Below, in pieces: positions 811 through 37,002 of a stretch of 37,569 bases of DNA. How positions within the stretch are numbered: the stretch's first letter is position 1; every line of letters begins with the position of its first letter. The stretch is from Bacteroidales bacterium (GTDB taxonomy: Bacteria; Bacteroidota; Bacteroidia; Bacteroidales; WCHB1-69): positions 1 through 37,569 of the forward strand of contig JAAYKF010000003.1 of NCBI GenBank assembly GCA_012522535.1. Reading direction: 5' to 3'. Under the pieces are notes generated by a model. That model was not told where the DNA came from, made no database searches, and saw only the letters and a list, made by a program, of their open reading frames with translations. The translations under genes were made by a program, and so were the position numbers.

Positions 811-1350
811 TTAAAAGATTTCTTCTTGTTTATCTACTAAATTAAAAGCTTTAGATACTTCTTCATAATCGGTAAAATCTACGTTTGGGTTAGTATATAT
901 TATTTTAGATCTAATCAAAACAAACTTAAATCCTCTTGTATGTGAAGAGTTGAATGGCGAACTACCATCGGATTTTTCAGCATTTATATACATTAAACCA
1001 TTGTTGTCTGAAAACTCTGCAAACCAATTTATATCATAATAATCTTCTTTAAATGGAAGAGCTACCCAAAACTGCTCGCCTCCTAATTTTTCATATAGAT
1101 AATATGTTAATACCACATCACCTCTTTCAAAATAAGGCGTTATTCCGCTATAAGTTGCAAACGTAAAGCCAGCATTAAAAGTTATATTTTGTGAGAATAC
1201 TTTTGGTTGATTGTCATATACTGTTGAATTAGTGGCATAACCATATAAATCTTCATGTTTTAAATATTCAGACATATCTTTTTTACATCCAGCAAATATT
1301 GCTATAATAGCAAAAAAAACTCCCATTAATAAAATTTTATTTTTTTTCAT
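811..1350 (-). CDS. Putative lipoprotein of unknown function
   Basis: 179 aa ORF; lipobox-like N-terminus (LLMGVFFAIIAIFAGCKKD); upstream of and co-oriented with 208-798 (12-nt gap). Confidence 0.7.
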   Translation of the reverse strand: MKKNKILLMGVFFAIIAIFAGCKKDMSEYLKHEDLYGYATNSTVYDNQPKVFSQNITFNAGFTFATYSGITPYFERGDVVLTYYLYEKLGGEQFWVALPFKEDYYDINWFAEFSDNNGLMYINAEKSDGSSPFNSSHTRGFKFVLIRSKIIYTNPNVDFTDYEEVSKAFNLVDKQEEIF

Positions 1351-1574
1351 TTTTAAAAGTTTAAATTTATAATTTTTATTATTCGTGTGACTTTTCGAAT
1401 ATCGCCCCGTTTTTACTGGTTTCTGGACTCCTTTTTTTTGAATTACTATTCTGCGTCACGGAGGCACTTTAGGTGGTAATTTTTTATTTGCTTTTTTTCT
1501 TTTCATTTGGACTTTAAAGTTTTGTGCCTTTGCATAGTCCCAAAAATAAAAAAACGTGGGACAATTGCTTACTC

Positions 1575-1687
1575 GTAACCGAGGGAGTCCAAGCCCTGAA
1601 CAACAGAGTAAAGCAAAAGCCCACGCCATAGCGTGAGCATTTAACTAAACTTCCCTGTTGTTCCCTAAATTTGGACTTTTCGGTTAC
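1575..1687. repeat. Long interrupted inverted repeat with inner hairpin (candidate structured RNA or non-autonomous element)
   Basis: GTAACCGA 1575-1582/TCGGTTAC 1680-1687; AGTCCAA 1586-1592/TTGGACT 1671-1677; GAACAACAG 1598-1606/CTGTTGTTC 1655-1663; inner CACGC-CATA-GCGTG 1622-1635. No ORF covers it. Confidence 0.65.
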
Positions 1688-1787
1688 AGGTAGCGTAGCA
1701 AACGCAATATTTTATACTAATTTAATTTATCTCATTCAATTTTATTTGGTTTCAATTATATTACCTTGCAATATTAAATAATATTAC

Positions 1788-1841
1788 AACAAACTGCAAG
1801 TATATTTTAATAAAATTATTAAAATATACTTGCAGTTTGTT
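1788..1841. terminator. Very long perfect hairpin, likely terminator of the nadA-MORN unit (-)
   Basis: AACAAACTGCAAGTATATTTTAATAA-aa-TTATTAAAATATACTTGCAGTTTGTT, 26-bp perfect arms with 2-nt centre, about 55 nt downstream of the 1897-3423 stop. Confidence 0.65.
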
Positions 1842-1896
1842 TTTGCTATCCTTATTTGATTTTAAAATTGAGTTTTAATAATATAAAAATCCTCAA

Positions 1897-3423
1897 CTAA
1901 TCTTCCAAAGTTTCGGGCAATTCGGGAATAATTTTTGTGCTGTCGTAGCTTATTTCAACGCCTTTGCGATAGGTAACACGCAAAAACATTTCGCCACTTT
2001 CGTCAAAATATTGCCATACTCCATGCTTGCGACCAAGGATATATCTTCCCGACTCTTTTAATTTTCCATTAAACCAATACGATTTGTATGAACCATCGGG
2101 ATTGTCATCATTAAAAGTGGTTTCGTACGATTTATTTCCGTTTTTATAAGTTCCTTTCCAAGCTCCATTTCTTAAGCCTTCGAAATATTTTCCCTCTTCC
2201 ACAAAATCGCCATGCACTTCTGTCCAATTACCCTCTTGTTCATTATCTTGGTAAACTCCTTTCGACAAAACATTTCCATCTTCGTCATACTCCACAAACT
2301 CTCCCTCCAATTTTCCCAACTCATAGTTTGCTTCGCGAAGTGGCTTAGAATTTTCGTAATACCAAAACCATTCCCCTACTCTACGCCCCTGATTATCATA
2401 TGTTCCCTCTATTTCTAATTGTCCATTGGGTAAATAATATTTCCACTTTCCAACAGGTCTGGAATCCACATAATTTCCTTCTGCTTTTAAAACATTTCTC
2501 TTATATAGCTCTTTCCAAGGTCCCTGTTTTTTGCCATCTAAATCGATTATCCCAATTCCCAAAAGTTCACCCTCATAAAAGAGATAACTCTCTATAACTT
2601 CGCCTTTTGGCGAATATTCGCGTCTTACACCGTGAGGTTTTCCTTGGTAGTAAGTTTGAATTACCTTTTGACGACCATTTTTGTAATAGTCAACACGTGT
2701 TTCCAAAACTCTCGTCTCCTCAACACCCTCAACTATTTCGCCATTATTATATTTTTCTAAACTTATCAAATTGCCCTCTTCATCATAATATTTGAAAAAA
2801 CCATCTTTTTTATCATTCAAATAAAAACCCTCTTCCTTGAGAATATCATTGGCATAAAAAATCTTCCACAAACCTTGTTTAAATCCACTTTGATCTTTTC
2901 TATTTATATGTTCGCGGCGAAGAATATAACCTCTTTTATATTCTAAAATAGAAATTATTGTACCTTCGGAATCATACTCTTTTGCTATGCCCTCCTCCAC
3001 CCCATCAACAAAAGGAATTTCTTTTATTAGATGATTATCTTTATCGAAATGCTTTTCGTTTCCTTGTTTTAAATCATCTATAAAACTTTCTAAAATTCTA
3101 TCTCCATTGGGTTTAAAAGTGGTTTTAATTCCATCTTTTTTGTCGTTTTTATAATTCAACGACATATATAATTCACCTTCAGAATTGTAGAATTTCCACT
3201 CTCCATCCAAAAGTCCATCTTTTCTATTTCCCTCCGAAACCAAAACACCATTTTCGTTATAGCTTTTCCAGTAAGCATCTGGTTTTCCGTCTTTTAGATA
3301 ACCTTCACTGGATTTTACGCCATTGGCGTGATAAAAAATATTATAACCATTAGGATCTATGGTTTGGCATATTAGCGATAAACTTAGAAAAATGAATATA
3401 GACAGATTTAGAAGTTTTTTCAT
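1897..3423 (-). CDS. MORN-repeat-variant (YwqK-like) exported protein
   Basis: 508 aa; signal peptide then many repeats of the form 'G.W..Y..NG.L..EG.Y..G'; typical of toxin-antitoxin-labelled YwqK/MORN variant proteins. Confidence 0.85.
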   Translation of the reverse strand: MKKLLNLSIFIFLSLSLICQTIDPNGYNIFYHANGVKSSEGYLKDGKPDAYWKSYNENGVLVSEGNRKDGLLDGEWKFYNSEGELYMSLNYKNDKKDGIKTTFKPNGDRILESFIDDLKQGNEKHFDKDNHLIKEIPFVDGVEEGIAKEYDSEGTIISILEYKRGYILRREHINRKDQSGFKQGLWKIFYANDILKEEGFYLNDKKDGFFKYYDEEGNLISLEKYNNGEIVEGVEETRVLETRVDYYKNGRQKVIQTYYQGKPHGVRREYSPKGEVIESYLFYEGELLGIGIIDLDGKKQGPWKELYKRNVLKAEGNYVDSRPVGKWKYYLPNGQLEIEGTYDNQGRRVGEWFWYYENSKPLREANYELGKLEGEFVEYDEDGNVLSKGVYQDNEQEGNWTEVHGDFVEEGKYFEGLRNGAWKGTYKNGNKSYETTFNDDNPDGSYKSYWFNGKLKESGRYILGRKHGVWQYFDESGEMFLRVTYRKGVEISYDSTKIIPELPETLED

Positions 3424-10063: not shown

Positions 10064-10079
10064 TGTTTCACGTGAAACA
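10064..10079. promoter_or_regulatory. parS: parS site (ParB/Spo0J binding)
   Basis: TGTTTCACGTGAAACA, exact match to the canonical 16-bp parS palindrome, immediately upstream of mnmG. Confidence 0.9.
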
Positions 10080-10084
10080 ATATT

Positions 10085-11953
10085 ATGTTTGAAAAATTTG
10101 ATACTATAGTTGTAGGTGCAGGACATGCAGGATGTGAAGCTGCTTATATTTCTGCAAAAATGGGGTCAAACACTTTATTGATAACCCAAAACTTAAATAC
10201 TATTGCACAGATGTCGTGCAACCCAGCCATGGGTGGAGTAGCCAAAGGACAGATTTTGAGAGAAATTGATGCCCTTGGTGGGATGAGTGCCATTATTTCG
10301 GATAAAAACACCATTCAGTTTAGAATGCTCAATAGGTCGAAAGGACCTGCAATGTGGAGCCCAAGAGCACAAATTGAAAGAGCTAACTACTCTCTTGATT
10401 GGAAACAAGTTTTGGAAAATACAGAAAATCTTTCGCTTTGGCAAGATGATGTTGTAAACTTGATTATAGAGGATAATGTTGTAAAAGCAGTAATTACGCA
10501 AACTGGCTTAGAGTTTTTTGCCAATTCTATAATTTTAACTAATGGTACTTTCTTGAAAGGAAAAATTCATATTGGTTCGGTAAATTACGAAGGCGGTAGG
10601 ATAGGGGAGCAGGCAAGTTTGCACTTGTCTGATAATTTGTTAGAGAGAGGCTTTACAGTAAAAAGACTTAAAACTGGAACACCTGTTAGGGTAGATGGTC
10701 GCAGTATAGATTTTTCTGTTTTAGAAGAGCAAAAAGGAGATGAGCATCCCGAGAAGTTTTCTTTTACTGAGACTTCAAAAGTTCAAGAGCAAAAAAGCTG
10801 TTGGATAGCTTATACCAGTTTAGAAGTTCATAATATTCTACGAACAGGTTTTGACGAGTCTCCGATGTTTAGCGGACGTATTGAGGGTGTTGGTCCAAGA
10901 TATTGTCCATCAATTGAAGACAAAATTGAGAGATTTAGTCATAGGGATAGACATCAACTTTTTGTTGAGCCAGAAGGTAAAAATACTACGGAATATTATA
11001 TAAACGGTTTTTCTTCATCATTACCCATTGATGTCCAATTTACTGCTTTAAGAAAGATTAAAGGATTTGAGAAAGCCAAAATAGTAAAACCCGGTTATGC
11101 CATAGAATACGACTATTTCGATCCTACACAATTGAAATATACTTTAGAGACCAAGTTGGTGGAGAATCTATATTTTGCTGGTCAAATTAATGGAACAACT
11201 GGATACGAAGAGGCGGCAGGTCAGGGGTTGCTGGCTGGTATAAATGCATCTTTAAAGCAGCAATCAAAGCCAGAGTTTGTACTTAAAAGAACAGAAGCTT
11301 ATTTGGGCGTATTAATAGATGATATTGTATCAAAGGGCGTTGATGAACCATATAGGATGTTCACTTCAAGGGCTGAAAATAGGATACTTCTTCGTCACAG
11401 CAATGCCGACGAACGTTTGTATAAATATGCCTATGAATTGGGAACAATTGATGAAGATAGATATTTGTCAATTGAAAATAAATATGCCAATGTAGATAAA
11501 ATAATCAAGTTTTTAGAAAATAATTCGGTAGAGCCTAAAGAGGTTGAAACTTATTTAAGTGAAATTGGAACTAGTGTTTTAAATCAAAAAGATAGACTTT
11601 ACAAGTTGGTGTTACGACCTCAGCTTAGCATTAATTCTATATCAAAACATGTTGCTGTCCTTAAAGATTATATTTTGGAGAATGGCTTTTCGGAAGAGGA
11701 GATTGAAGAGGCAGAAATAAGAATTAAGTATAAAGTTTATATTGAAAAAGAGATGGAAATGGCTCAAAAGATTTTGAAATTTGAGCATATTGCCATTCCA
11801 GAAAACTTCGATTACTTTTCTTTAAAATCCATTTCTATGGAGGGGAGAGAGCGTTTATCCAAGCATCGTCCTCAAAATATTGGTCAAGCTTCAAGGTTAA
11901 GTGGAGTCAGCCCCGCAGATATTTCAGTTTTACTTCTATATTTTGGCAGATAG
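10085..11953 (+). CDS. mnmG: tRNA uridine-5-carboxymethylaminomethyl(34) synthesis enzyme MnmG
   Basis: 622 aa; '[16 protein letters not shown]', '[24 protein letters not shown]', '[25 protein letters not shown]'. Confidence 0.97.
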
Positions 11954-11956
11954 TAA

Positions 11957-11972
11957 TGTTTCACGTGAAACA
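11957..11972. promoter_or_regulatory. parS: parS site (ParB/Spo0J binding)
   Basis: TGTTTCACGTGAAACA, second exact parS; extends to a 20-bp perfect palindrome AATGTTTCACGTGAAACATT (11955-11974), 3 nt after the mnmG stop. Confidence 0.9.
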
Positions 11973-28371: not shown

Positions 28372-30333
28372 TTAGAATGTCATTTTTATAAAAAATTGAT
28401 AGTGTCGGCCTGGCATTGCTCGCCACAAAATGGCTTGATAGTCGGTATCGAGAAGATTTTCGATGGAAAATTTGGCTTCAAAAATTTGCTTGCCAACTTT
28501 CAAACTTTGACCCAGAGTCAAGCTGTGTAATTTGTATTGAGGGAGTTTGTGTCGCGAGTTTTCCGCCTCCTGAACAGTATATCTGGCACTTGTATAATTG
28601 AATCCGTAGTTAAAAAAACTATTTTTATATACAATACTTATATTGGCATTTGCCACATGTTTTGGAATGTATAGGAGTTGATTTTTGTAGTCGGTAAATA
28701 AGTTTCCGTTAGCCTCTTTGGCAGAGGTAAAATTCATGGAGTAGCTGATTTTGGTATCTATGGTAAATTTTCCAAGAATGGTGTTTAGCGAAATAAATCT
28801 TTCAGCACCCCTTGCAAAAACCTTTTGTAAGTTTGTTGGTCTCCAGTATCTAAAGTCGCTGGGTTGCCAAATAATCCAATCGTCTATTAGTGATGCATAC
28901 AGAACTAATTTGGCATCTAATTTATTATACTTCCCTAACTGTTTTGTAAAATGAAAACCCCAATCTATCGAGTACCCATTTTCCGATTTCAAATGGGGGT
29001 TTCCGCCGGGTTGCCAATACATGTCGTTGAGTGTGGGTCGATGATGCACTTTAGATAGGTTTGATTTTAGCTTCAGGTCATCAGTTTTAAAAGGTGCTAT
29101 TTCAAATCCTATGGTGGGCACAAAGGCAATTTCGCCATCGTTGGCATAATCGAGGTTTAGAAGAGCAAAAGATGAAAATTTTCTCGACCACTCATAAAAC
29201 ATGGATACGCCTCCCAATAGCTGCAATCTTTGTGCGTCAAACTTGCTCTCTTCTTTGATATCCCAATAGTCGGCATTATCAAAATTGGCTATGGCAAGAG
29301 TTTTTAAAACAATTTTCTTTTTCGGTGTCCATTCCGATTTGTATTTCAGAAAGCTTGTGTTTGTGGTGCTTTGGGTATTGTGATTTACAAATGGTCCAAT
29401 TATGGTTTGGCTGGACAAAAAGTAGGAAGTTTTATTGTGGGAGTGTCCAAGACTTAGCGAAGAGTAATATTTCTCCGAAAATCGTTGCCACTGGAGGCTC
29501 CATCGCAAATCGTCGTCGTTTTGTGTTTCTCTCCTTCCGCTGCCTTCATACGACATAATGGCTGGTAAATTTCGGAACGAATGTAGCTGCCACAATGAAG
29601 TTGTTATAAGATGATTTTTTGTTCTGTAAAACACCTCCGACAATGTGCCATATTTATTATATGATGCATTTTTTTGTTTTTGGTAGTTCCACAGTCCGTT
29701 GGCGGTGTTGTAAAATTCAAAATTATTTTCCGATTGCTCATAAATGGCTCTGAATCTAAATTGTATGTTTTTGAAACCACCTCCAATTTTCACTAAGCTT
29801 TGATAGTTTTCGAAGCTTCCGGCTCCAAGTGCTATGGCTCCATATATGGGAGTTCCGAAGCTGGGCAAACTTTGAATATTCACACTGCCGCCAATGGCTC
29901 CAACGCCAGTGTGCGATGAGTTTCCACCGGGCAAAACTTCAAAGTCGTCGATAAACCAAACAGGGATTTGCGAAAAATCGACCTGTCCCAACATGGGGTT
30001 ATTTATATTCATGCCATTCCATTCAACCCTTGTGTGTGAGGCTGCAGTACCGCGAAATGAAACTGTGGAAAGGGAATTTTGCCCGTAGGATTTTACAAAA
30101 ATGGGAGTATGATTTATTAATATTTCCGACAGAGATTTACTTTGCTGAAGGGAGAGGGCTGATGAGTCGGCTTTTATTTTATAAATGGCTTTATCTTTCA
30201 GCAGGCTTTTCGACTCTATGGTTATTCCATCAATAAAAATTATGCTATCATTTATTTGTGCTGTGGCAAAATATTGAAACAGGCACAAAGTGGCTATTGA
30301 CATTAAAATTTTTGCAATGGGTTTTTTTTTCAT
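28372..30333 (-). CDS. TonB-dependent outer membrane receptor, BtuB-like
   Basis: ATG at 30333 (MKKKPIAKILMSIATLCLFQYFATAQ signal) within ORF 28372-30381; plug region 'SKSLSEILINHTPIFVKSYGQNSLSTVSFRGTAASHTRVEWNGMNINNPMLGQVDFSQIP'; C-terminal aromatic strand 'PGRHYQFFIKMTF'. Confidence 0.88.
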   Translation of the reverse strand: MKKKPIAKILMSIATLCLFQYFATAQINDSIIFIDGITIESKSLLKDKAIYKIKADSSALSLQQSKSLSEILINHTPIFVKSYGQNSLSTVSFRGTAASHTRVEWNGMNINNPMLGQVDFSQIPVWFIDDFEVLPGGNSSHTGVGAIGGSVNIQSLPSFGTPIYGAIALGAGSFENYQSLVKIGGGFKNIQFRFRAIYEQSENNFEFYNTANGLWNYQKQKNASYNKYGTLSEVFYRTKNHLITTSLWQLHSFRNLPAIMSYEGSGRRETQNDDDLRWSLQWQRFSEKYYSSLSLGHSHNKTSYFLSSQTIIGPFVNHNTQSTTNTSFLKYKSEWTPKKKIVLKTLAIANFDNADYWDIKEESKFDAQRLQLLGGVSMFYEWSRKFSSFALLNLDYANDGEIAFVPTIGFEIAPFKTDDLKLKSNLSKVHHRPTLNDMYWQPGGNPHLKSENGYSIDWGFHFTKQLGKYNKLDAKLVLYASLIDDWIIWQPSDFRYWRPTNLQKVFARGAERFISLNTILGKFTIDTKISYSMNFTSAKEANGNLFTDYKNQLLYIPKHVANANISIVYKNSFFNYGFNYTSARYTVQEAENSRHKLPQYKLHSLTLGQSLKVGKQIFEAKFSIENLLDTDYQAILWRAMPGRHYQFFIKMTF

Positions 30334-30434
30334 CACATCTATATTTTGTGTATATTTTGTGGTGAAAATTCCGAATAACAAGCTTTTGCTTTTTACTCAT
30401 TGCCTTTCACCCGAAAGCATTCAAGTTTTAAACT

Positions 30435-30597
30435 ACAAGCAGGTTTTCTGGCTTGTTCCAATTTAGGCACCTTCCCATTTTCACAAACAGTGGTTTATAG
30501 CCTAATTTTAGCAGAACTCACAGCTACGGGTATAGCTCTTGAATTTCACAAGATTCCCTTTCTTCTTTTGGAAGAATTACCTGTAATTTGCCTGCAA
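30435..30597 (-). ncRNA. Cobalamin (B12) riboswitch
   Basis: On the - strand: 'GAAAGGGAATCTTGTGAAATTC', 'ACCCGTAGCTGTGAG', 'GGGAAGGTGCC' and the B12 box 'AGCCAGAAAACCTGC' (30439-30453), in order, upstream of the TonB receptor. Confidence 0.92.
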
Positions 30598-30828
30598 AGA
30601 TAGTTCTTTTATTTATAACAGTTATAAACAAAAGGTCATAAGAGGGAATTAATTTTATTTACACATTAAAAAAGTCAACATTAATTATGGTTTTAGAATT
30701 ATTTCATTTTATTCAGCTTGTGTTTAGGTTTAATTCAATAAAATATATTTAAAAACTTGTAAAGTGATGTCAATATCACCCCTCTTCCTTGTTTTGGTTA
30801 ATTTAAGTGTTAATTGTTTTTTTGTTTT

Positions 30829-33787: not shown

Positions 33788-34225
33788 ATGAAACAATATA
33801 AATTTATAATAAATGGCAATGATTATCAGGTAGATATACTCGATATTGAAGATAATATTGCAGACGTTGAGGTTAACGGAACCCCATATAAAGTTGAGCT
33901 TGACAAAGAGATGAATGTTAGGAGTACACCTAAAATAGTGCAAGCTAAACCAGCACCTAGTGCAGAAGCTAGCACTGCTGCTCCAAAGGCAGCTAGCCCA
34001 GCATCAACGGGAGGCGAAGCAATTAAATCACCACTCCCAGGAGCAATAATAGATGTTTATGTGAATGTTGGAGATACCGTAAAAACTGGACAGCAACTTC
34101 TTATGCTTGAGGCTATGAAAATGGAAAACAATATCGACTCAGATAGAGATGGAAAAATTTTGGAAGTAAAAGTATCTAAGGGCGATAATGTTCTTGAGGG
34201 TGATGTCTTAATAGTAATTGAATAA
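33788..34225 (+). CDS. Biotin carboxyl carrier protein of the decarboxylase
   Basis: 145 aa; Ala/Pro/Ser linker; biotinylation motif 'LLMLEAMKMENNID'. Confidence 0.93.
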   Translation: MKQYKFIINGNDYQVDILDIEDNIADVEVNGTPYKVELDKEMNVRSTPKIVQAKPAPSAEASTAAPKAASPASTGGEAIKSPLPGAIIDVYVNVGDTVKTGQQLLMLEAMKMENNIDSDRDGKILEVKVSKGDNVLEGDVLIVIE

Positions 34226-34235
34226 TATTTGTGAA

Positions 34236-35390
34236 ATGGGAAATTTAGGAGAATTTTTTTCTAGTGGACTTTTAGAATTCTTTAATTATTCAGCGTTTGC
34301 CAACATTGAATGGGGGCATATCATAATGATAATTATAGGGATTTTCTTTATAAGTATAGGAATTTTAAAAGAGTACGAACCCCTTTTACTTATCCCAATA
34401 GGCTTTGGAATTTTAGTGGGAAATGTCCCATTTCTTCAAGGCGAAGGAATTGGAATTTATGAAGAGGGTTCAGTGTTAAACTATTTATATTTTGGAGTTT
34501 TATATGGGGTCTATCCCCCCTTAATATTCTTAGGTGTTGGTGCCTTAACAGACTTTTCGGCACTTATATCAAACCCCAAATTAATACTTGTAGGAGCTTC
34601 GGCACAGCTGGGTATTTTTGGTGCCTATGTTGTGGCTCTATTGCTTGGATTTACTCCACACGAAGCTGGTGCAATTGGAATAATTGGAGGGGCCGACGGA
34701 CCAACGGCAATATTCCTGTCATCGCGGTTGGCACCGCACTTTATGGGGGCAGTGGCAATATCTGCCTACTCATATATGGCATTAGTGCCAGTGTTGCAAC
34801 CACCTGTTATGAGGCTACTTACAACCAAAAAAGAACGCCAAATTCGCATGCGTCCACCACGTGCAGTATCAAAAAGAGAGAAAATAATGTTTCCAATTAT
34901 TGGATTCTTATTAACCTCATTTATAGTGCCAAGTGCATTACCTTTACTGGGTATGCTATTCTTTGGTAACTTGTTGAAAGAGAGTGGTGTAACCCGCCGA
35001 TTGGCTCAAACAGCCGGAGGTTCTATGGTTGATATTGTTACAATTCTAATAGGTATAACAGTAGGTGCATCAACGCAAGCAAGCACATTCCTTACAACAA
35101 AATCAATTATGATTTTTGGACTTGGAGCTGCCTCGTTTATTGTGGCTACATTTGGAGGAGTTTTGTTCTGTAAAATACTTAACCTATTCCTTAAGGATGG
35201 AAACAAAATTAATCCGCTAATTGGAAATGCAGGAGTTTCGGCTGTGCCAGCTGCTGCACGTGTTTCGCAAATGATAGGTTTGGAGTATAACAAAACCAAC
35301 CACTTGCTAATGCACGCCATGGGACCCAACGTAGCGGGTGTTATAGGTAGTGCCGTTGCTGCTGGTGTACTATTGAGTTTCTTATACTAA
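34236..35390 (+). CDS. mmdB: Na+-transporting decarboxylase beta subunit (OadB/MmdB/GcdB family)
   Basis: ATG 34236 preferred; multi-TM; 'PPLIFLGVGALTDFSALISNPKLILVGASAQLGIF', 'GAIGIIGGADGPTAIFLSSRLAP', 'GNAGVSAVPAAARVSQMIG'. Confidence 0.93.
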   Translation: MGNLGEFFSSGLLEFFNYSAFANIEWGHIIMIIIGIFFISIGILKEYEPLLLIPIGFGILVGNVPFLQGEGIGIYEEGSVLNYLYFGVLYGVYPPLIFLGVGALTDFSALISNPKLILVGASAQLGIFGAYVVALLLGFTPHEAGAIGIIGGADGPTAIFLSSRLAPHFMGAVAISAYSYMALVPVLQPPVMRLLTTKKERQIRMRPPRAVSKREKIMFPIIGFLLTSFIVPSALPLLGMLFFGNLLKESGVTRRLAQTAGGSMVDIVTILIGITVGASTQASTFLTTKSIMIFGLGAASFIVATFGGVLFCKILNLFLKDGNKINPLIGNAGVSAVPAAARVSQMIGLEYNKTNHLLMHAMGPNVAGVIGSAVAAGVLLSFLY

Positions 35391-35410
35391 AAATTAATTT
35401 TAACAGATAT

Positions 35411-35442
35411 AATTTAGGCTGTCGATTTCGACAGCCTAAATT
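35411..35442. terminator. Bidirectional terminator between mmdB and glyS
   Basis: AATTTAGGCTGTCGA-tt-TCGACAGCCTAAATT, 15-bp perfect arms, between convergent genes. Confidence 0.85.
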
Positions 35443-35469
35443 GTATGTAATAAACCTTCAAGGTTTGGA

Positions 35470-37002
35470 TTATGGTCTATAAATATTAGCCTTCAACCTA
35501 TCACCAATAATTTTAGATAGCATAGAAATATCCACTCTCTCTTGTTTCATGCTGTCGCGCTCGCGAATGGTAACAGTATTGTCTTCCATTGTTTGAGTGT
35601 CGATGGTAACACAGTATGGAGTTCCAATGGCATCCTGACGGCGATAGCGTCTGCCAATGGCATCTTTATCGTCATACTGACAGTTGAAATCAAACCTTAA
35701 ATCATCAAGTATCTCTTTTGCCTTTTCGGGCATACCATCTTTTCTTACCAAAGGTAAAACTGCAACTTTGTATGGCGACAAAATAGGTGGAATATTCAGA
35801 ACTGTACGCAAAGAGCCATCTTCCAATGTCTCTTCGTTGTATGCATTACTAAATATTGCCAAAAACATTCTATCCATTCCAATGGAAGTTTCCACCACAT
35901 AGGGAATGTAGTTTTCGTTGGTTTCGGGGTCGAAATATTGAAGTTTTTTGCCCGATAAATCTTGATGTGCCTTTAGGTCGAAATCGGTTCTTGAGTGAAT
36001 ACCTTCCAATTCTCTAAATCCAAATGGGAAATCAAACTCAATATCTGTTGCAGCATTGGCATAATGGGCAAGTTTTTCGTGGTCGTGATAGCGTAGTTTT
36101 TCTTCGCTAATGCCAAGAGTACCAAGCCATTTGTAACGCTCTTCTTTCCAATACTCAAACCATTTAAGCTCTTCGCCGGGGCGAACAAAAAACTGCATCT
36201 CCATTTGCTCAAATTCACGCATACGGAAAATAAATTGGCGAGCTACAATTTCATTACGGAAAGCTTTACCAGTTTGGGCTATGCCGAAAGGAACCCTCAT
36301 GCGACCACTTTTCATAACATTCAAAAAGTTTACGAAAATACCCTGAGCAGTCTCTGGACGTAAATAAATTACCTCAGCACCTTCAGAGGTGGAACCCATT
36401 TGAGTAGAAAACATTAGGTTGAACTGACGTACGTCGGTCCAGTTACGACTTCCAGAAATGGGACAGGCAATTTTCAGCTCTTCAATAAGTGCCTTAACGC
36501 CCACCAAGTCATCGTTGCCAAGAGTTTCGTTCATCTTAGTGCGAACATCTTCAATCTCTTCCAAATATCTCATCACTCTGGGGTTGGTCTCGCGGTACAT
36601 TTTTTCGTCAAAATTTTCACCAAAACGCTTGTTAGCTTTCGCCACCTCTTTGTTTATTTTATCTTCAATTTTCAGAATATAATCTTCCAATAAAATATCT
36701 GCACGATAACGTTTTTTCGAGTCCCTGTTGTCAATCAATGGGTCGTTGAATGCATCAACGTGTCCCGATGCCTTCCATATGCTTGGATGCATAAAAATAG
36801 CCGAGTCAATACCAACAATATTTTCGTGCATCTGAACCATGGATTTCCACCAATATTGACGAATGTTGTTTTTTAGTTCAACACCATTTTGACCATAGTC
36901 ATAAACAGCACTTAAACCATCATATATCTCGCTGGAGGGAAAAATAAAACCATATTCCTTAGCGTGCGAAATTATTTTTCTAAATAGATCTTCCTTGCTC
37001 AT
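35470..37002 (-). CDS. glyS: Glycine--tRNA ligase (dimeric type)
   Basis: 510 aa; 'FIFPSSEIYDGLSAVYDYGQNGVELKNNIRQYWW', 'LRPETAQGIFVNF', 'RMREFEQMEMQFFVRPGEE'. Confidence 0.95.
   Translation of the reverse strand: MSKEDLFRKIISHAKEYGFIFPSSEIYDGLSAVYDYGQNGVELKNNIRQYWWKSMVQMHENIVGIDSAIFMHPSIWKASGHVDAFNDPLIDNRDSKKRYRADILLEDYILKIEDKINKEVAKANKRFGENFDEKMYRETNPRVMRYLEEIEDVRTKMNETLGNDDLVGVKALIEELKIACPISGSRNWTDVRQFNLMFSTQMGSTSEGAEVIYLRPETAQGIFVNFLNVMKSGRMRVPFGIAQTGKAFRNEIVARQFIFRMREFEQMEMQFFVRPGEELKWFEYWKEERYKWLGTLGISEEKLRYHDHEKLAHYANAATDIEFDFPFGFRELEGIHSRTDFDLKAHQDLSGKKLQYFDPETNENYIPYVVETSIGMDRMFLAIFSNAYNEETLEDGSLRTVLNIPPILSPYKVAVLPLVRKDGMPEKAKEILDDLRFDFNCQYDDKDAIGRRYRRQDAIGTPYCVTIDTQTMEDNTVTIRERDSMKQERVDISMLSKIIGDRLKANIYRP

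Follow-up and report, generated by a model that had tools for sequence, protein, structure and literature searches.

A widespread candidate 5'-leader RNA of Bacteroidota, outside Rfam, lying mostly upstream of genes for predicted exported proteins

Background

Positions 1351-1896 of the window (the whole stretch of DNA analysed, 37,569 nt) separate two genes of the minus strand and raise the question of whether a self-complementary tract devoid of coding sequence is a functional RNA, and if so of which gene, or a folded mobile element. A preliminary description had seen no ORF over these ~545 bp, and this is borne out, there being none of at least 80 aa between 1350 and 1897. Its interpretation of the layered inverted repeat within them was selection for structure, in no recognised RNA family, or a non-autonomous mobile element. 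The former part of this interpretation withstands the analysis below and the mobile element does not; the strand, the 5'-leader context and the adjacent DUF805-like RNA had escaped it.

Results and discussion

The block and its neighbouring genes

Read in the minus-strand direction, the block is best taken as 5' leader to the orphan gene 811-1350 (Table 1). The product of this gene returned no match in a Pfam search and has a single distant homologue among 98 other genomes of the window's family. Ahead of the element lies a putative promoter of the form TTG-N20-TAATATTG (1769-1799, minus strand), with the TTG at 1797-1799, 20 nt upstream of the -7 element. The 26-bp inverted repeat in the same region is likely to be the terminator of the upstream gene 1897-3423; the TTG of the promoter-like motif falls within its span. 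The distance from the element to the ATG of 811-1350 is 204 nt, as against the usual 50-80 nt in relatives, and the intervening sequence accommodates both the DUF805-like RNA and a 16-codon ORF, the latter possibly a chance occurrence or a remnant.

Table 1. Coordinates of the leader element, its helices and the neighbouring features in the window
Feature	Positions	Strand	Basis or remark
179-aa lipoprotein-like orphan, gene presumably controlled by the leader	811-1350	-	ORF
DUF805-like RNA (RF03081)	1372-1438	-	50.9 bits vs gathering 51.1
16-codon ORF MKRKKANKKLPPKVPP	1456-1506	-	ATG 48 nt past element; spacing like that of relatives
S2 helix GTCCC (1562-1558) : GGGAC (1541-1537)	1537-1562	-	Fold; covaries in relatives
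P1 3' strand ACGT inside ACG-TTTTTTT, running on into U tract	1548-1557	-	Sequence
Leader RNA element, core within covariance models	1555-1699	-	R1 89.2 bits, R2 100.1 bits
P2 3' strand TCGGTTAC	1575-1582	-	Fold, covariation
P3 3' strand TTGGACT	1586-1592	-	Fold, covariation
P4 3' strand CTGTTGTTC	1598-1606	-	Fold, covariation
P5 terminal hairpin TGCTCACGC-TATG-GCGTGGGCT	1618-1639	-	Most sequence-conserved part
P4 5' strand GAACAACAG	1655-1663	-	Fold; covariation of helices 3-5; partner 1598-1606
P3 5' strand AGTCCAA	1671-1677	-	Fold; helix 2 covariation; partner 1586-1592
P2 5' strand GTAACCGA	1680-1687	-	Fold; helix 1 covariation; partner 1575-1582
P1 5' strand GCGT	1702-1705	-	Pairs with 1554-1557
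Putative promoter -7 element TAATATTG	1769-1776	-	1 mismatch to Bacteroidetes TAnnTTTG
Perfect 26-bp inverted repeat, AT-rich, 2-nt loop	1788-1841		3' of 1897-3423(-)
MORN-repeat protein gene	1897-3423	-	Pfam match; flanks block on upstream side

Fold of the element in the window

The layered inverted repeat at 1575-1687 is a genuine structure: its folding energy is -44.1 kcal/mol, while shuffled sequences average -20.6 (sd 3.2), which gives z = -7.36, and none of 200 shuffles folds as well. P2, P3 and P4 correspond to its three nested blocks (8, 7 and 9 bp), which are exact as first described. The inner hairpin, P5, is likewise present, but comprises 8-9 bp with a conserved U-G wobble rather than the 5 bp originally proposed. 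The element as a whole extends beyond this repeat to ~1537-1705 through the addition of an outer helix, P1, and a downstream helix, S2. In the window P1 is weak, with 4 bp of which one is G-U, and the loop of S2 holds the U tract together with the 3' strand of P1.

A widespread family recovered by covariance models

DNA searches of relatives yielded weak matches to portions of the window element, and the matching loci on reading displayed a common anatomy with differing stem sequences. Aligning 14 copies by sequence alone with MAFFT obscured the helices, and modelling hence started from five sequences, with a structure derived by hand. The resulting covariance model, R1, was thus trained on five relatives, the window not among them; it recovers the window element with 89.2 bits (E 3e-19) and detects a second copy in the window's own genome (L068), though a DNA search of that genome with the window sequence gave no second copy at E < 0.001. 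R1 finds matches in 82 of 99 genomes of the family, 77 of 198 of the order and, at E < 1e-4, 54 of 396 of the phylum, with 14 to 30 copies in some genomes. Scanning 84,980 species with a sequence pattern located at least 115 places; among the matches listed (80 titles) nearly all are Bacteroidota, the carriers including Bacteroides, Odoribacter, Paludibacter, Flavobacterium, Chryseobacterium, Capnocytophaga and Pedobacter. Cultured species such as Flavobacterium ajazii, Chryseobacterium gambrini and Paraprevotella clara are among these carriers. Judged from these sequence comparisons, the window element is one copy of a widespread, predicted multi-helix RNA (P1-P5) found across Bacteroidota. 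A DNA-level search of the window against plasmids and phages gave no matches.

Two copies deserve separate mention. A metagenome-assembled genome labelled Paenibacillus (L096) contains the element and is probably a mislabelled or contaminated bin. At L033 (G007:C63) the 5' part of the element differs from that of L034, unrelated sequence having taken its place about the outer stem; this represents either an assembly error or a recombination breakpoint.

Covariation and conserved core

Selection for structure, as the preliminary description had suspected, is strongly supported by covariation. Across 109 aligned matches, 93.4% of cells are paired against 63.2% in shuffled alignments, and the covariation score is 0.731 against 0.172 for shuffles and at most 0.059 for slid partners; this alignment was fitted to the model, and model-free folds agree with it. 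Individual folds of relatives, obtained with no model, reproduce the same helices, and the nested helices with P2-AA-P3 and P3'-ACC-P2' could be located by hand in 13 of 13 sequences. Double changes that retain pairing occur in all 25 pairs of P2, P3 and P4, whose stacked stems vary freely and are always complementary. The junctions AA/ACC (between P2 and P3) and AATTTCA/GGGT (between P3 and P4) are conserved, and the central pairs of P5, including the U-G wobble, are nearly invariant (about 105 sequences). P3 is biased in composition, with pyrimidines at positions 2 and 3 and A at 7, which suggests tertiary contacts. A pairing of the P2 end plus AA with the UUUC of the P3-P4 junction was only weakly above shuffles and is not claimed.

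The outer helix P1 takes the form AAAGCGT:ACGCTTT in relatives, where GCGT:ACGC plus an A:U are nearly invariant, and a compensated change to GAAGCGT:ACGCTTC is seen in L041, L042, L059, L219 and L222. S2 also covaries: a pairing score of at least 6 is reached with the copy's own downstream sequence in 49% of cases and with swapped partners in 18%. This helix begins just ahead of the P1 3' strand and stops shortly before the start codon, its downstream partner lying mostly 20-50 nt past the element; S2 and P1 are adjacent and at most partly overlapping, and may form a pseudoknot together rather than alternate. The element scores on both strands in the covariance-model search. G-U pairs outnumber A-C mismatches by 125:33 in P2-P4, which makes the minus strand the more probable source of the functional RNA.

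Position upstream of genes and nature of the targets

The copies are placed in a consistent manner between promoter-like motifs and start codons. Occurrences of the Bacteroidetes promoter motif TAnnTTTG cluster at 60-120 nt upstream of the element: three bins hold 97 of the 173 motifs, and shuffles give 34 motifs over all 300 nt. A start codon lies 50-79 nt past the element in 107 of 203 copies, and a same-strand ORF of at least 100 aa starts at most 150 nt downstream in 149 of 201; a divergent ORF starting at most 150 nt upstream is found in 7 of 178. Signal-like N-termini, called like the lipobox by a simple heuristic, occur in 77.6% of the downstream proteins against 27.1% of other ORFs at the same loci, and a lipobox in 25.9% against 8.2%. 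The downstream proteins are otherwise diverse, with BspA-type LRR, Por secretion tails, PEGA, BNR and lipocalin-like domains, and also include EcoRI-type methylases and other restriction-modification proteins; no single or coherent metabolic pathway was recognised among these genes. A coding role for the short ATG that follows the U tract in several copies was rejected, its frame not being conserved. Taken together, a role of the element as a conserved, structured 5'-leader RNA appears well supported, and the leaders would mostly precede genes for exported proteins across Bacteroidota.

The DUF805-like RNA adjoining the element in the window matches its model over the full length (1-68; E 3e-8) at 0.2 bits under the gathering cut-off, and lies upstream of a gene, the ATG of 811-1350 following about 21 nt downstream. 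DUF805 RNA (RF03081, clan CL00115), of which Weinberg 2017 is reportedly the source, is likewise a 5'-leader RNA found near start codons in the same bacteria; it has 68 positions, short stems and a conserved ACGGGGCG core, and shows no evident likeness to the new element in either structure or sequence. In two relatives (L115 and L135) a DUF805 RNA that scores above gathering directly follows the element, and the next ATG comes after it, an order which the window shares with a longer spacer. By a strict pattern this tandem occurs in 3 of 230 copies, against about 0.04 expected from density in the loci, and tandem copies of the element with itself are also seen. A second DUF805 RNA in L135 (5843-5911) lies directly upstream of the next gene, making DUF805 motifs likewise leader modules that recur in these genomes.

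Divergent stems between conserved flanks

Within single genomes, 33 pairs of copies share flanks at least 80% identical (60 nt upstream plus 50 nt downstream), mostly before unrelated downstream genes, and their stems are on average 55% identical, with 0 of 33 reaching 80%. In G203, two loci (L061 and L213) have genes 98% identical and flanks 92-96% identical, with element stems at 44%. The reverse is seen in a tandem pair of G134 (L207, 1262-1409 and 2387-2534), where the elements are 100% identical and the flanks and genes have diverged. Universally fast stem evolution was rejected in view of this pair and of a pair in G230 (L254 and L263), both with identical elements. Either of two processes can explain part of this pattern, constraint on the flanks while the stems are free to change or the exchange of elements through recombination, and the conserved flanks beside unrelated stems constitute a separate evolutionary puzzle.

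Relationship to known RNAs

As the preliminary description had supposed, the element matches no family in Rfam: there is no credible Rfam 15 match to it in the window, the sole overlap being Leu_leader at 18.2 bits (gathering 50). This and low-score microRNA matches were dismissed as chance hairpin matches. Rfam searches of the element in 15 related loci gave none up to E 0.1, and in 14 more none at gathering. Structured Bacteroidetes elements were previously found computationally, such as Flavo-1, Bacteroides-1 and the GUCCY-hairpin (Weinberg 2010, PMC2864571); those listed in Rfam do not match the new element, and the GUCCY-hairpin, having no Rfam model, falls outside this comparison. Three palindromic candidate RNAs of 106-132 bp, HMP2_4205, HMP2_1032 and HMP2_4078, are described for Bacteroidetes from human microbiomes (PMC8040213); the new element resembles them in scoring on both strands and, in a comparison by description rather than by sequence, differs from them in its neighbours, theirs being TPR, TonB and phage domains. 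By Rfam this is a new RNA family, which may nonetheless have been listed earlier, whether among these palindromic candidates, as the GUCCY-hairpin or in the paper that introduced DUF805.

Other structured or repeated features of the window include a Cobalamin riboswitch (RF00174, 93.2 bits) at 30421-30599 (minus strand), upstream of ORF 28372-30381 of the same strand, and a 27-bp imperfect inverted repeat at 35399-35454, which is likely to be a bidirectional terminator between the convergent ORFs 34218-35390(+) and 35470-37002(-). Repeats at 10064-10095 and 11941-11972, one on each side of a 622-aa ORF (10085-11953), both contain TGTTTCACGTGAAACA, which we take to be the canonical parS sequence.

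Possible mechanisms

The element is best read as a new family of cis-regulatory leader RNAs, and the natural assumption is that the gene downstream is regulated in cis. It is plausibly an orphan riboswitch or a protein-binding leader, whose ligand and mechanism we infer along the following lines. The conserved junctions and P5 would bind a trans factor, either a small ligand or a protein, and binding would tip the RNA towards either P1, with the U tract taken up, or S2, with the sequence ahead of the AUG folded; the choice would in turn govern how the downstream gene is translated or undergoes early elongation. Between the element and the start codon the window would carry, stacked on the first, a second leader RNA of the DUF805 type. 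On balance, we favour with some confidence the view that the block is the 5' leader of 811-1350, its main feature being a conserved Bacteroidota leader RNA outside Rfam that is bound by a trans factor and acts through the P1/S2 balance; the diversity of the targets and the 204-nt distance in the window are its weak points.

This explanation has two more specific forms. A reasonable, if tentative, possibility is that an RNA-binding protein present throughout the phylum recognises P5 and controls mRNA stability, translation or antitermination, as might be expected from the near-invariance of P5 down to its U-G wobble and from the conservation of flanks and loops while the stems drift. Alternatively, the junctions and P5 may form the aptamer of an orphan riboswitch for a small signalling molecule sensed by many leaders. 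The structured 5' leader with covarying helices and a conserved core is of the kind by which riboswitches are recognised, and the up to 30 copies per genome, the exported-protein targets and the tandems with DUF805 RNA or with itself are also consistent with this form; we hold it possible but somewhat doubtful, in that the downstream genes lack a coherent metabolic pathway and conservation is highest in a helical hairpin, which would equally suit protein binding. c-di-GMP riboswitches occur in many copies per genome before unrelated, often surface-related genes. The new element is like RNAs of that type in its dispersed leader copies, conserved core and variable stems, but differs in architecture and is without an Rfam match.

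Readings other than a bound leader fare less well. The P1 strands AAAAGCGT and ACGCTTTTTTT resemble a long-range terminator stem, as would suit a small RNA made independently, with its 3' end at the U tract that follows P1 and with read-through into the downstream gene; such an RNA is unlikely, given that some relatives lack the U tract (L041 and L042: ACGCTTCGTGG), that the coupling to start codons is tight and that S2 pairs across the U tract. Conserved junctions, freely varying stems and possible pseudoknots are typical of ribozymes too, and the element has all of these; a self-cleaving ribozyme, or an element that processes and stabilises the mRNA 5' end, nevertheless strikes us as quite improbable, there being no match to known ribozyme families in Rfam and no inferable cleavage site. 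The MITE- or REP-like mobile element that had been proposed at the outset would account for the many dispersed copies, some with flanks at least 80% identical before unrelated genes. The copies are indeed dispersed, but what they hold in common is a structure rather than a sequence, with one fixed orientation and a fixed spacing to the ATG; the helices of flank-sharing copies are near random in identity, the search of the window's own genome at the DNA level missed the copy that the model finds, and no clear element ends are apparent, all of which renders a mobile origin highly improbable.

Conclusions

Returning to the leader-RNA reading, its most far-reaching version, that of a phylum-wide class of leaders controlled as orphan riboswitches or by an RNP, which would co-ordinate exported-protein and restriction-modification genes and in which each copy carries its own stems that outpace the flanks, appears rather doubtful as a whole. 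With the covariance alignment, ligands, protein partners and reporter constructs can be tested directly. The occurrence of such an element in most genomes of one family, with dozens of copies in some of them and a place ahead of genes for what appear to be exported proteins, suggests that a major phylum of the gut and the environment has a post-transcriptional regulon so far unrecognised.
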